In this document: positions 1 through 12,408 of the stretch, piece after piece
Position numbering within the stretch: the stretch's first letter is position 1
Layout of the letters: each line of letters begins with the position of its first letter
Made by a program: the position numbers and the translations under genes
From: Bacilli bacterium
GTDB taxonomy: Bacteria > Bacillota_I > Bacilli_A > RF39 > UBA660
Assembly (NCBI GenBank): GCA_017511945.1
Contig: JAFWHR010000013.1
Coordinates: 1 to 53,042, forward strand
Reading direction: 5' to 3'
DNA: 53,042 nucleotides
The notes under the pieces: model-generated
Databases searched by the model: none
What the model saw: the letters and a program-made list of their open reading frames with translations, nothing else
What the model was told of the DNA's origin: nothing

Positions 1-750
1 ATTAGTTTTTAAATCATATCCTATTAGATCATTATCTTTATTAAAACCAGATTTATATAGTTTATCTATCATTATTGTTTTAAGGTATTCATCATCTCCA
101 TTAATAAATAGTATTTTATCTTTCATTCCATCTAGTATTTCAAGTTTTGCTTTAAATATGTTTTCTTTACTTTTAAAATTTCCTATATGAGATGATCCTA
201 TATTGGTAATAACTGATATATCCGGTTTAATTAATTTAGATAGGTAAGATATTTCATTATAGTGGTTCATACCTAGTTCTAGTATTAGTATTTGAGTATC
301 TTTTTTTAGTTTAAAAATTGATAGGGGAATACCTATATTGTTATTGTAGTTTTTAATATTAGTTTGAACTTTATATTTTGTCTTTAGAACATTATAAAGC
401 ATATCTCTAGTTGTAGTTTTTCCCATACTTCCCGTTATTCCTATTACGAGAGGTCTATATTTATCTAATATGTATTTTGCTATTAAAGATAAAACTTTAG
501 TTGTGTCTTCCACTAAAATGTAAGGAAAGTTAACTTCTATATATTTAGAAGATAAAAACAATATACATCCATTTTTAATAGATTCCTCTATAAAGTCATG
601 TCCATCTTTATTATTTCCTATAATAGGTATGAATATGTCATTATTAACTATCCTTTTAGAGTTAATTTTAATATCTTTAAATGAAGTATTTAAATTAATT
701 TTACCTATTAATTTACCCTTAGTTATGGATAATAGTTCTTTAATTTTCAA
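1..750 (-). CDS. murF: MurF, UDP-MurNAc-tripeptide--D-Ala-D-Ala ligase (partial)
   Basis: Read on the minus strand, this frame stays open to the window edge, so the C-terminal part is missing. The product ligates D-Ala-D-Ala onto the UDP-MurNAc-tripeptide in the cytoplasm, the last soluble step before lipid I. Visible marks are the Mur-ligase P-loop GITGSMGKTTTRDML at about residues 110-124, the LELGMNHYNEI segment typical of MurF, and ITNIGSSHIGNF shortly after. The start chosen is TTG at 750 because GGTGA lies five bases upstream; an in-frame ATG at 762 has no ribosome site. It is divergent from spoIVFA. A second Mur ligase (murD) lies near the other end of the window. Confidence 0.93.
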   Translation of the reverse strand, partial: MKIKELLSITKGKLIGKINLNTSFKDIKINSKRIVNNDIFIPIIGNNKDGHDFIEESIKNGCILFLSSKYIEVNFPYILVEDTTKVLSLIAKYILDKYRPLVIGITGSMGKTTTRDMLYNVLKTKYKVQTNIKNYNNNIGIPLSIFKLKKDTQILILELGMNHYNEISYLSKLIKPDISVITNIGSSHIGNFKSKENIFKAKLEILDGMKDKILFINGDDEYLKTIMIDKLYKSGFNKDNDLIGYDLKTN

Positions 751-1345: not shown

Positions 1346-2057
1346 AATCCATCCTTTTTATTTAATTTGTCTGTTAATTTGTTCATTTACTGGTCATTTA
1401 AAAGATTACATCATGATAAGTATAATTATATTATTCCATGAATTTGGACATATATTAGTTTCAATCATCTACAAATGGAAAATAGATAAAGTAGTAATAT
1501 TACCATTTGGGGCAATTACAATATTTAACGAATACATTAATAGACCTTTAAAAGAAGAGTGGTTTATCTTAATATTTGGTCCTATATTTCAGTTAGTACT
1601 ATCTTTTTTTTTAAATGATAAATATGCATATTATAGTAATGTCATTTTACTTTTTAATCTTCTTCCTATATATCCTTTAGATGGATCAAAAATATTAAAT
1701 ATATTATTAAATAAGTTTATAAGTTTTAAAAAGTCACATTTACTAACCATATATATTTCTTTTATAACAGTTGTATTTATAATATATAAATCATCTTTTA
1801 ACTTAATTTTAGTTTTAATACTACTGTTCATATCTAAAAGTATATTAAAAGAGTATAAAAATCACAGTTTAATATTTAATAGGTTTTTATTAGAGAGGTA
1901 TAATAACAATTTTAAATTTAAAAAATATAAATACATAAACTCATTAGATTTAAATAAGATGAAAAAAGATTATAGACATTTTTTTAAAAGTAAAAATGGA
2001 TATATAACAGAAAAGGAAAATTTAAAAAAAAGGTTTGACTTTAACAGTAAAAAATGA
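1311..2057 (+). CDS. spoIVFB: SpoIVFB-like intramembrane metalloprotease (M50, site-2 protease)
   Basis: A polytopic zinc protease; in Bacillus it cleaves pro-sigma-K. HEFGH at residues 43-47 gives two zinc ligands and the catalytic Glu, and LLPIYPLDG places Asp124 as the third ligand. The LPFGA and NRPLKEE stretches and the FLLERY motif near residue 190 follow the Bacillus SpoIVFB plan closely, including the C-terminal cytoplasmic region. About 248 residues is shorter than the Bacillus protein (288), mainly at the C-terminus. The start is uncertain: ATG 1311 has no ribosome site, while AAGGTGG at about 1318-1324 would serve an ATT (1326) or ATA (1329) codon in the same frame. Followed directly by the L21 leader. 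Confidence 0.88.
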   Translation: MERRWIIKNIFKIHPFYLICLLICSFTGHLKDYIMISIIILFHEFGHILVSIIYKWKIDKVVILPFGAITIFNEYINRPLKEEWFILIFGPIFQLVLSFFLNDKYAYYSNVILLFNLLPIYPLDGSKILNILLNKFISFKKSHLLTIYISFITVVFIIYKSSFNLILVLILLFISKSILKEYKNHSLIFNRFLLERYNNNFKFKKYKYINSLDLNKMKKDYRHFFKSKNGYITEKENLKKRFDFNSKK

Positions 2058-9101: not shown

Positions 9102-9313
9102 TGGCTAAAAAATTTGAAGATAAAGTTAAAGAATTAGAAGAGATAATTACCGTATTAGAAAATGGAGATGTCTCACTAGATGAATCTATTAAAAAGTATA
9201 CTGAAGCGATGAAACTCGTTAAAGAATGTGATGATGAGTTAAAAACAGTGGAAGATAAGATAAGTAAGATAGTATCTGAAAATGGAGAACTAAAAGACTT
9301 TACAGTTGAGTGA
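9098..9313 (+). CDS. xseB: Exodeoxyribonuclease VII small subunit
   Basis: A 71-residue helical protein: FEDKVKELEEIITVLENGDVSLDESIKKYTEAMKL is the XseB signature. Several copies wrap the helical arm of XseA. It overlaps the xseA stop. Two adjacent ATG codons (9098 and 9101) follow GGAGG; the first has the better spacing. Confidence 0.95.
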   Translation: MMAKKFEDKVKELEEIITVLENGDVSLDESIKKYTEAMKLVKECDDELKTVEDKISKIVSENGELKDFTVE

Positions 9314-9329
9314 AAGTAGGAAAATATAT

Positions 9330-9704
9330 ATGAAAAATGGTTTTACTTTAATAGAACTACTTGGAGTAATTGTAATAATAAGTGTACTTGCTTTAATAAC
9401 TATTCCAATTATTGACAGTTCATTAAATAAGGGAAAACAAAACTTATCTGATATTCAAAAAGAACAACTTATAAAAAGTTTAAAGGACTACTATTCATCA
9501 AATATTGATGAGTTATCTAATGTAAATGGGAAAGCATGTAAAACAATATCAGAACTTCAAGAATTTCTACCAGATGATATAAAAGATCCTAAAAATAATA
9601 AGGATTATAATGTAAAAGTATGTGTTGAAAAGAAATCTGTAACATGTACATCACATTTAGATGATAGTTGTTATAATTATTCTTACACTGTAGAAGATAA
9701 CTAA
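9330..9704 (+). CDS. Type IV prepilin-like protein (second copy)
   Basis: A 124-residue protein with MKNG then FTLIELLGVIVIISVLALITIPII, a perfect class III prepilin signal and N-terminal helix with Glu5. The soluble part holds five cysteines (KACK, VCVEKKSVTCTSHLDDSC), more than in the first prepilin. The start is ATG 9330; a TTG at 9306 inside the xseB end lacks the signal context. It follows xseB by 16 bases, so, like the enolase-linked copy, it is carried in a housekeeping operon. Confidence 0.87.
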   Translation: MKNGFTLIELLGVIVIISVLALITIPIIDSSLNKGKQNLSDIQKEQLIKSLKDYYSSNIDELSNVNGKACKTISELQEFLPDDIKDPKNNKDYNVKVCVEKKSVTCTSHLDDSCYNYSYTVEDN

Positions 9705-9716
9705 AGGAGTTAATTT

Positions 9717-11231
9717 ATGGATAGTAGGCAGTATTTAAAATTAATTAGAGATACTTTTGATGAAACATTAGATGAATTTGATACATCATATGAAAAAAGG
9801 GAGTTTGACGACGTATTTACAGAATTGATTCACAGTTTATTAGAAACTAAAGATGATGATTACGATAGCATATTTAACTATTTAGTTAAAAATTATTTAA
9901 AATCAATTGAAGCCATATCTAAATTATCGCCAGGATTGTCTACAGGACTATACGATGAAAAGGGAAATATTAAAATAAATACCTATAATGGAAAAATGTC
10001 AGATATCCCAAACGATGATGAGATTGCAGAAGATACAGTATTTGATGCATCCAGTATGACAAAAATGTTTACCTCGGTATTACTTTTAAAAGAGTCAGAA
10101 AGAGGAAATATAGATTTAAATAAAAAGTTTTCAGACTATAATCCACTACTTAGTAAAGTAGATGTAAAAATAATTGATGCTTTAAGATTTGGCGTCAATT
10201 TAAGAACTGATGGAAGATTAGATGAGCCAAATATCTCTAAAAAGATAAGAGTAGAGAGATTAAAAAGTACATATGTTTTTGAAAGAGATACTTTTATATA
10301 TAGCGATATTCCATACATGCTGGTGCCACTTCTATTTGGGAAAACTTTAGAAGAAGCAACAGAAAACTATTTAAATAATTTTTATGAACTATATAGAGAT
10401 GAACTAGGTCTATCTAAAACCGGTTACAGTTTAATTAATATGACAGGTGGCACTGTTAATTTAGATCTTATAAACGATATTTACAGTAAAGATGGACTAT
10501 TCGATCCTAAAGCGAATATGTTTGAAAAACAAATTGGCTATATATCAGGTCATGCCGGTGTAACGACGACAGTTAAAGATTTAGAAAAACTGTTTAAAAG
10601 TCTGTCACATGGACTATTATCTGATTCATCTTTAAAAGAATTAATTACTGCAGCACACGATACCGACATTTTACTAGATAAAAATGGTAATGAAGTAATT
10701 AGAAATGGAAAAAAAGTATACATAAACCGCGGAATGGGAGTTTATTTAAATAAAGGCAATATCAGAATAAGTGATATGCCATCTAGATTTAGTCCTTCAT
10801 CATTTGCGTCAGCAGGATCAACTGGTACTTACTGTATATATGATATTTCAAATGGACTAAACATGATTTATCTATCTAATGCGAGAAGTGGATCATATAG
10901 TAAATGGATAAATACCGGTGATTATATTTACGGTGATAAAAATGATCAAATGTCAAAAAATTATGGGACAACTTTAATATCTGGTACTGGTAGTATGAAA
11001 GATGGTAGCATAATTAGAGAGAATGGAACAGCTATGACATATACAAGAGCAACCAATAATTTTAAAGAAGAAGGACTTAGAACTTTATTAAAACTTAGAA
11101 TTGCCAAAAAAGTACTTGTAAAAAAAGCCAAAATAGAATTATCTGACATATTACTAGATGAAGAGTTAAGTAAAATAGAAGAGGTATTTAGTGGAAATAA
11201 TAGTAAAAAAATCAAATTAAAAAGAGCTTGA
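9717..11231 (+). CDS. Beta-lactamase-like serine hydrolase (class C / esterase family), no signal peptide
   Basis: A 504-residue member of the serine beta-lactamase-like superfamily. The nucleophile motif SMTK is at residues 113-116 in FDASSMTKMF, and YSD at 195-197 stands in the Tyr position. Conserved SGHAGVTTTVKDLEKL lies near 275-290, and SAGSTGTY near 365 is the likely third motif. No signal peptide or membrane anchor is visible, so it acts in the cytoplasm unless exported otherwise; this points to an esterase or peptidase rather than antibiotic resistance. AAAGGAG precedes the ATG. It shares a transcription unit with the prepilin upstream and ends in a two-way terminator. Confidence 0.82.
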   Translation: MDSRQYLKLIRDTFDETLDEFDTSYEKREFDDVFTELIHSLLETKDDDYDSIFNYLVKNYLKSIEAISKLSPGLSTGLYDEKGNIKINTYNGKMSDIPNDDEIAEDTVFDASSMTKMFTSVLLLKESERGNIDLNKKFSDYNPLLSKVDVKIIDALRFGVNLRTDGRLDEPNISKKIRVERLKSTYVFERDTFIYSDIPYMLVPLLFGKTLEEATENYLNNFYELYRDELGLSKTGYSLINMTGGTVNLDLINDIYSKDGLFDPKANMFEKQIGYISGHAGVTTTVKDLEKLFKSLSHGLLSDSSLKELITAAHDTDILLDKNGNEVIRNGKKVYINRGMGVYLNKGNIRISDMPSRFSPSSFASAGSTGTYCIYDISNGLNMIYLSNARSGSYSKWINTGDYIYGDKNDQMSKNYGTTLISGTGSMKDGSIIRENGTAMTYTRATNNFKEEGLRTLLKLRIAKKVLVKKAKIELSDILLDEELSKIEEVFSGNNSKKIKLKRA

Positions 11232-11246
11232 GAGCTCTTTTATATT
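11221..11246. terminator. Bidirectional terminator between the serine hydrolase and lexA
   Basis: AAAGAGCT, loop TGAG, AGCTCTTT, flanked by A-rich and T-rich runs, so it can stop transcription from both convergent genes. Confidence 0.85.
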
Positions 11247-11857
11247 TTTCTATAAAGTCCTATCGCTTTACCTAATATAACTACATTATCTAATATAATA
11301 GGATCCATGGTGTCATTTTCAGGCTGAAGTCTAAAATGTCTTTTTTCTTTGTAAAAAGTTTTAAGAGTAACCTCATTGTCATCTGTCATCGCAACAACAA
11401 TTTCTCCATTTCTCGCATGACTTCTTCTTTCAACTATAACTACATCTCCATCTAAAATACCCGCATTAATCATACTAGTCCCATCAACTTTAAGTGTAAA
11501 TACTTCCTTTCCTTTTGGAAGTAAATAACTTGGAAGGGCAAAAAACTCATCTGGCATTTCAATAGCCTCTATTGGACTTCCTGCAGTAATTTTACCGAGC
11601 AAAGGAACCTCAGTAACTAATTCATTTTCCTTTTCAAATTCATTTTTAACAAGTAGTTCTATTGCTCTATTTCTAGAACTGCCTTTTCTTATAAACCCCT
11701 TTGTCTCTAAATTGTTTAAATGTGCTTGTATAGTAGCAGGTGATGAGATGTCAAGTTTTTCTCCTATCTCTCTAACTGTAGGTGGATATCCGTGAGATAC
11801 AATATATTCTTTGACACATTTTAAGACATCTTCCTGCCTTTTTGTAAGTTTTTCCAT
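11240..11857 (-). CDS. lexA: LexA, SOS repressor
   Basis: Repressor of the DNA-damage response with RecA-stimulated self-cleavage. The winged-helix domain fills residues 1-70 (TKRQEDVLKCVKEYIVSHGYPPTVREIGEKLDISSPATIQAHLNNLETKG). The cleavage site is Ala92-Gly93 in KITAGSPIE, the catalytic Ser128 is in GTSMINAG and Lys166 in EVTLKTFYK. 205 residues is normal. AGGAGG precedes ATG 11857; a longer frame upstream lies in the promoter. The gene is divergent from a small membrane ORF and yneF, as in Bacillus. Confidence 0.97.
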   Translation of the reverse strand: MEKLTKRQEDVLKCVKEYIVSHGYPPTVREIGEKLDISSPATIQAHLNNLETKGFIRKGSSRNRAIELLVKNEFEKENELVTEVPLLGKITAGSPIEAIEMPDEFFALPSYLLPKGKEVFTLKVDGTSMINAGILDGDVVIVERRSHARNGEIVVAMTDDNEVTLKTFYKEKRHFRLQPENDTMDPIILDNVVILGKAIGLYRKI

Positions 11858-11882: not shown

Positions 11883-11922
11883 AGTATAACAAAAAAAAGT
11901 GTAAATGTCAAACATTTGTTTT
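11883..11922 (-). promoter_or_regulatory. lexA promoter with LexA-box-like palindrome
   Basis: On the minus strand, TTGACA (11911-11906), 17 bases, TATACT (11888-11883). The palindrome AAAC-ATTT-GTTT at 11910-11921 overlaps the -35 and resembles the Gram-positive SOS box (GAAC-N4-GTTC) in layout. Autorepression is the expected role; binding is inferred. Confidence 0.65.
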
Positions 11923-11931
11923 AAAAATGTA

Positions 11932-11960
11932 TTGACACGAACAAATATACGTGTTATAGT
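11932..11960 (+). promoter_or_regulatory. SOS-type promoter of the small membrane ORF
   Basis: TTGACA (11932-11937), 17 bases, TATAGT (11955-11960). The spacer carries CGAACAAATATACG, whose left half matches the Gram-positive LexA box (CGAAC). The site would be blocked by a repressor bound between -35 and -10. Confidence 0.6.
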
Positions 11961-11984
11961 TATATTGCAGAAGGAGGTAAGAGT

Positions 11985-12131
11985 ATGGAAATGATAAAAA
12001 GTAAAACTGTGATCGCATTTTTCGCGCTTGTATTGGTGGTGAGTTATATATCGGCCTTGGATGGTGCGAAGACAAATAGTGCGTCAAACAGATCGAACCT
12101 CATCTCGAATAAATCTGATTATAATGCATAA
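11985..12131 (+). CDS. Small single-pass membrane protein, candidate SOS division inhibitor (YneA position)
   Basis: A 48-residue protein preceded by AAGGAGG. After MEMIKSK, residues 8-24 form one membrane helix (TVIAFFALVLVVSYISA), followed by a polar Ser/Asn/Lys tail facing outside. It has no LysM domain, unlike Bacillus YneA. Evidence for an SOS role is position (divergent from lexA, upstream of yneF) and a promoter carrying a LexA-box-like half site. Small single-pass SOS division inhibitors such as SidA, SosA and YneA share this layout. The function is inference. Confidence 0.6.
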   Translation: MEMIKSKTVIAFFALVLVVSYISALDGAKTNSASNRSNLISNKSDYNA

Positions 12132-12192
12132 TATTATAAAAAACTTGTAATTTAAAATCATTTTTAGTAAAATGAATTTAGGAGGTAATTAT

Positions 12193-12408
12193 ATGGCATT
12201 ATTTTTAGATATATTAAAAGTTGTTATTGGACTGGTAGTTGGAGTTGTTATTGGATTTTTAATCGCAAAAAAATATACTGAAAAACAACTTAAGGAAAAT
12301 CCACCTATAAATGAAAAGATGATTAAGGCTTTGATGATGGGTATGGGAAGAAAACCAAGTCAAAAACAGGTTAATCAAATGATGAAGTCAATGCAAAAGT
12401 ATATGTAA
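12193..12408 (+). CDS. yneF: YneF family (UPF0154) membrane protein
   Basis: 71 residues. An N-terminal membrane helix with a glycine zipper ([19 protein letters not shown]) is followed by the family block [32 protein letters not shown], nearly as in B. subtilis YneF. Function is unknown. AGGAGG precedes ATG 12193. It sits in the lexA-yneA-yneF neighbourhood seen in Bacillus. Only a T-rich stretch, with no clear hairpin, follows it. Confidence 0.92.

Follow-up and report, generated by a model that had tools for sequence, protein, structure and literature searches.

A lexA-linked family of small membrane proteins as a probable minimal SOS division inhibitor in uncultured gut Bacilli

What does the short ORF that faces lexA in this genome encode, and does it belong to the SOS response? 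The locus was studied in a stretch of 53,042 nucleotides from a Bacilli bacterium (contig JAFWHR010000013.1), which is referred to as the window. The lexA product was a full-length LexA that scored 228 bits against TIGR00498, over the cut-off, and its translation most likely started at the ATG at 11857 rather than at the TTG farther upstream with which the longest ORF opens. The divergent ORF had a strong Shine-Dalgarno sequence (AGGAGG) ahead of its ATG, and its product, MEMIKSKTVIAFFALVLVVSYISALDGAKTNSASNRSNLISNKSDYNA, had one N-terminal helix followed by a polar tail. A preliminary description of the locus had proposed divergent promoters with 17-bp spacers for lexA and the ORF. This was confirmed, since both promoters scored 11/12 and were the top two promoter-like sites in a 2.4-kb scan (Table 1). 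Separately, the interval upstream of lexA in window coordinates (9306-9704 and 9717-11231) encoded an N-terminal signal of the pilin type (MKNGFTLIELL) and a protein with a beta-lactamase fold (PF00144, 8e-15).

Table 1. Positions of the lexA-linked features in the window and of the homologous copies in prophage early regions
Feature	Locus	Position	Strand	Details
lexA (SOS repressor; HTH and S24 autopeptidase)	window	11243..11857	-	PF01726 2.6e-23, PF00717 2.4e-32
lexA promoter	window	11883..11911	-	TTGACA (11911-11906), 17-bp spacer, TATACT (11888-11883)
LexA-like palindrome over the lexA -35	window	11909..11922		CAAACATTTGTTTT; relatives have CAAACATTTGTTTG or CAAACAAATGTTTG in this position
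ORF promoter	window	11932..11960	+	TTGACA (11932-11937), 17-bp spacer, TATAGT (11955-11960)
Predicted LexA box of the ORF	window	11938..11951		CGAACAAATATACG; start of the ORF promoter spacer, one half-site intact
48-codon ORF	window	11985..12131	+	N-terminus basic; single membrane helix at about residues 8-27; tail short and polar
yneF (UPF0154), 3' neighbour of the ORF	window	12184..12408	+	PF03672 2.5e-29
Prophage copy	L254	1822-1938	-	
Prophage copy	L255	2009-2155	+	
Prophage copy	L257	about 50-184	-	
Prophage copy	L258	1920-2066	+	
Prophage copy	L261	about 1878-2024	-	
Prophage copy	L262	1644-1778	+	

The palindrome or half-palindrome that had been noticed at each promoter was also recovered, as CAAACATTTGTTTT at the lexA -35 and as CGAACAAATATACG in the spacer of the ORF promoter. 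At no more than one mismatch, the lexA palindrome was found once in the window against 0.16 expected. The ORF box fitted 8 of the 10 fixed positions of CGAACNNNNGTTCG (mostly 9 of 10 in congeners), and at two mismatches this pattern was found five times in the window against 3.9 expected, which was no excess over chance. An 8/10 match at the fixed position directly after the -35 had a probability of about 1e-4. Since the ORF box was nonsignificant in the window alone, the case for it depended on relatives, where conservation lifted the box beyond chance. The same nonsignificance spoke for a chance ORF that happened to lie beside lexA, with the lexA promoter alone being relevant.

We therefore turned to the lexA loci of relatives. 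When 99 genomes were searched for LexA, almost every congener and genome of the same family was found to carry lexA. A further 80 lexA loci were picked as the nearest LexA matches in a public collection of genomes, most of them metagenome-assembled bacteria. The named members of the latter set included Candidatus Pelethosoma, Scybalousia and Onthousia; NCBI taxonomy places Pelethosoma in Mycoplasmatota incertae sedis, and we take this group to be the GTDB order RF39, family UBA660. The preliminary description had suggested looking in relatives for ORFs of 40-60 residues divergent from lexA, and had regarded a lack of conservation there as the outcome that would count against it. The opposite was seen: 121 of the 138 non-redundant family loci had an upstream ORF of 40-62 aa that was preceded by a ribosome-binding site and encoded a hydrophobic helix. 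In 117 loci this one-helix ORF was accompanied by a second LexA box matching at least 8/10 positions; four loci had the ORF without such a box, and 17 were scored with neither. The co-occurrence of ORF and box gave a Fisher P of 2.5e-18, a value that overstates independence because the loci were related to one another and 80 of them were picked as nearest LexA matches. A second box of that quality occurred in 1.6% of shuffled regions, and an intact TTGACA started exactly 6 bp before the box in 105 of the 117 loci.

The loci that lacked the ORF were spread over several genera (e.g., G051, G053, G057 and G058 from the 99-genome search). L197 (identical to L228) kept two LexA boxes and an ORF of only 28 codons that was nearly the membrane helix alone; it was scored among the 17, yet it represented a threshold case and not a loss. 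Three loci from another family with larger genomes (f11; L060, L062 and L237) had a different 57-residue membrane ORF divergent from lexA, with three LexA-like boxes. None of the loci returned by the LexA searches at the class and phylum levels could be identified as coming from Bacillus or Staphylococcus.

The ORF was a conserved protein-coding gene. Within the genus, the first 28 codons had a mean dN of 0.35, a mean dS of 1.06 and a mean dN/dS of about 0.33, with third positions varying most, so that the codons were under purifying substitution. A chance ORF was thus refuted at the family level by this ratio together with the 117 of 138 loci that carried both ORF and box. For the window itself this explanation was very improbable, given that sequence, length, promoter, box and ribosome-binding site were conserved over many genera.

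Family members had a median size of 47 aa with a median tail of 22 residues, and their consensus was MExLKxKxxIALxVMVLGVSYIxAxDN...NA, where K7 was invariant and E2, K5, I10, G18 and Y21 nearly so. The N-terminal side of the helix was more positive than the C-terminal side in 110 of 121 members, and an N-in/C-out orientation is accordingly expected. A structure model (mean pLDDT 72) showed a single helix at residues 3-37 that was confident in its membrane part only, and confidence in the tail was low. As had been claimed at the outset, the small protein was predicted to have one membrane helix, a polar tail and no LysM domain. Namely, no LysM match was found by Pfam or NCBIfam in the window protein or in 25 relatives, and 48 aa leave no room for this domain. 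The same databases gave no match for the small protein to any family, including the named inhibitor families. A more divergent subgroup had an invariant R and an invariant L immediately behind the helix, and its tail carried the motif R-[VI]-x-x-L-[ED]. Comparison of the profiles of the two lexA-linked subgroups gave a probability of 59%, which leaves the common descent of all lexA-linked members putative.

The window copy was not a typical member of the family. The nearly invariant G18 was V, and over the first 28 residues its identity to relatives was 0.44 against 0.61 expected at the same LexA distance (four pairs). Together with the degraded box (8/10), this less typical protein suggests that the window copy may be weakened or retuned.

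Other SOS genes were also considered. In the genome of the window, the strict pattern CGAANNNNNGTTYG matched three times, none of them at the ORF or recA, and its reversed control matched five times. Because one-mismatch genome scans were near control levels overall, boxes were used only where they lay in promoter position. A LexA-like box, AGAACAAATGTTCG, was present upstream of recA in this genome, and in relatives similar boxes preceded genes that we read by eye as Y-family polymerase, uvrA, ruvA and recO. In five loci (L027, L032, L034, L036 and L044), the space separating the promoters of lexA and the ORF contained a further LexA-like box, for a total of three. Additionally, a LexA-like box was located about 25-40 bp upstream of a gene whose product we judged by eye to be an HD-domain phosphohydrolase in L130, L134 and L142. 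In L137 such a box lay between the HD-domain gene (likewise read by eye) and a thyA-like gene, and the two genes were adjacent in some genomes. This phosphohydrolase gene is a possible further SOS target.

The genomic context fitted a role in cell division. Two relatives (L292 and L294) had the order lexA|ORF-tkt-yneF, while in the window yneF followed the ORF directly. We take the B. subtilis order to be yneA beside lexA and upstream of tkt and yneF, which is the same place; on this understanding the ORF indeed occupied the yneA position, as first suggested. The genome of the window also encoded a Prc/CtpA-type protease and, at G000:C13:26552-27631, an FtsW-like protein. The latter scored 223 bits and so fell short of the curated threshold of 337.5, as most control genomes also did. 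In L294, a weak full-length SirA match (2440-2844; Pfam E 0.0018, below cut-off) was located between tkt and yneF, presumably the place of sirA in B. subtilis; such a match was unexpected in a reduced genome.

Our leading explanation was that LexA represses the ORF and that the ORF encodes a minimal bitopic, LysM-less SOS division inhibitor, a functional counterpart of YneA and SosA, and we consider this probable. It was supported by the gene order, the predicted topology, the absence of LysM and the presence of FtsW and a CtpA-type protease, as well as by the co-occurrence of ORF and box, the fixed promoter geometry, the purifying substitution and the recA box. The promoter and box sequences support LexA control of the ORF. 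According to the proposed mechanism, LexA bound to the box just after the -35 would block transcription of the ORF, and RecA-triggered cleavage of LexA would free the promoter. The small protein would then insert with its N-terminus inside and its C-terminus outside. Through its helix, together with the conserved basic N-terminus, it would attach to the divisome, with FtsW as the most likely partner by analogy with YneA. The outer tail of about 20 residues would prevent the synthesis of septal wall, tag the protein for removal by the CtpA-type protease, or both. We infer division arrest by the small protein, as well as LexA binding, damage induction, FtsW as the target and proteolytic reset, from these features. 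The explanation was weakened by the lack of a sequence match to named inhibitors, by the degraded box in the window and by the absence of the gene from some members. Moreover, the transmembrane segment of YneA localises without LysM but leaves division uninhibited (PMC13396833); by the mechanism of YneA, a tail of 22 residues may therefore be insufficient.

Two other functions were compatible with a small LexA-regulated membrane protein. First, it could be a toxin of the TisB/DinQ kind, where damage induces a membrane peptide that lowers the membrane potential and leads to dormancy with no divisome target. TisB and DinQ are SOS-linked single-helix peptides (PMC11575346, PMC3567139), so that SOS control, small size and a single helix would be shared. 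On the other hand, the predicted 5' leader of only about 18-25 nt would leave little room for type I antisense control, the basic N-terminus and the polar tail were conserved in the small family, and the ORF occupied the yneA position; we regard this alternative as unlikely. Second, the protein could have another SOS role, such as modulating a membrane-located complex for repair, transport or proteolysis. The support at hand concerned regulation and topology, and sequence by itself gives no function, but the characterised Gram-positive genes of such anatomy beside lexA are division inhibitors (PMC6851548), and we consider this role unlikely, slightly more so than a toxin.

Homologues of the small protein were also found away from lexA. 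Five copies were located in bacterial genomes (G012:C57, G203:C31, G203:C72, G330:C3 and G439:C32) and one more in an IMG/VR contig (L262). They were clearly homologous to the lexA-linked copies (e.g., 53% identity, E 1e-10), and their neighbours across the prophage loci included integrases, an HTH or CI-like repressor, replication genes, DnaD-like helicase loaders and a Sak4-type protein. No LexA box of at least 8/10 was present within 250 bp upstream of the five copies from bacterial genomes. Viral scans with alignment A4, the window protein and the G330:C3 copy found no relative, a scan with another prophage copy returned L262 again and nothing else, and a PHROGs scan of the L262 copy gave no match. 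The early-region location of these homologues was consistent with a protein acting on a host process. We tentatively propose, with somewhat less than even confidence, that temperate phages use LexA-free homologues of the host checkpoint to stop host division, in which case the protein would be among the smallest inhibitors and would be employed by host and phage alike. The prophage copies suggest that phages use the same handle on host division, and they could serve the same purpose as Kil and DicB. To our knowledge, neither Kil nor DicB is a homologue of any host SOS gene. Lambda Kil and DicB are likewise small phage- or prophage-expressed proteins that stop division, but they act through FtsZ/ZipA or MinC (PMC3961180, PMC4967827).

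If correct, the leading explanation would mean that the lexA-linked, membrane-anchored division checkpoint also operates in a large, uncultured lineage of gut bacteria; no SOS division inhibitor of this lineage was found in the open-licence PubMed Central papers searched. Known Gram-positive SOS division inhibitors have little sequence in common, but commonly adjoin lexA and have one transmembrane helix and an outer C-terminus (PMC6851548). YneA of B. subtilis resembles the small protein in its position beside lexA, its LexA control and its bitopic membrane topology (PMC13396833, PMC6051672). Its transmembrane segment targets TM7 of FtsW, whereas its LysM is required to block synthesis (PMC13396833), and the protein is cleared by CtpA (PMC6051672). 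YneA needs K5/E6 and residues of the helix, and the small family resembles it in keeping basic and acidic residues before the helix. Since YneA has about 103 aa and includes an essential LysM domain that binds peptidoglycan and is missing here, membership of the YneA family was excluded. SidA of Caulobacter, as described in PMC6851548 and PMC13396833, is also a small membrane-anchored SOS inhibitor without LysM that acts on late division proteins; however, it is alphaproteobacterial, is predicted to bind the other side of FtsW TM7, and shows no evidence of homology to the small family.

The closest anatomy was that of staphylococcal SosA, which is divergent from lexA, SOS-controlled and LysM-less, has one N-terminal transmembrane segment and an outer C-terminal tail, and is limited by CtpA (PMC6851548), a type of protease that the host of the window copy also had. 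The small family shared this arrangement, with the topology taken from the positive-inside bias and the predicted helix. However, SosA has 77 aa and a longer conserved membrane-proximal tail with residues essential for activity, while the family members had 40-62 aa and lacked the staphylococcal tail; the small family had no NCBIfam match, and any membership of the SosA family is at most putative. Because the outer segment was even shorter than that of SosA, the inhibitory step would have to reside within the helix or within some 20 residues. A natural minimal inhibitor without LysM would sharpen the question of what beyond the helix blocks FtsW in YneA and SosA. The preliminary description had suggested a previously undescribed short SOS division inhibitor. 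This stands as the leading explanation and with respect to the sequence family, since neither the family nor its brevity nor its prophage relatives were found described in the open-licence PubMed Central literature, but not with respect to the concept, which was known from LysM-less SosA (PMC6851548).
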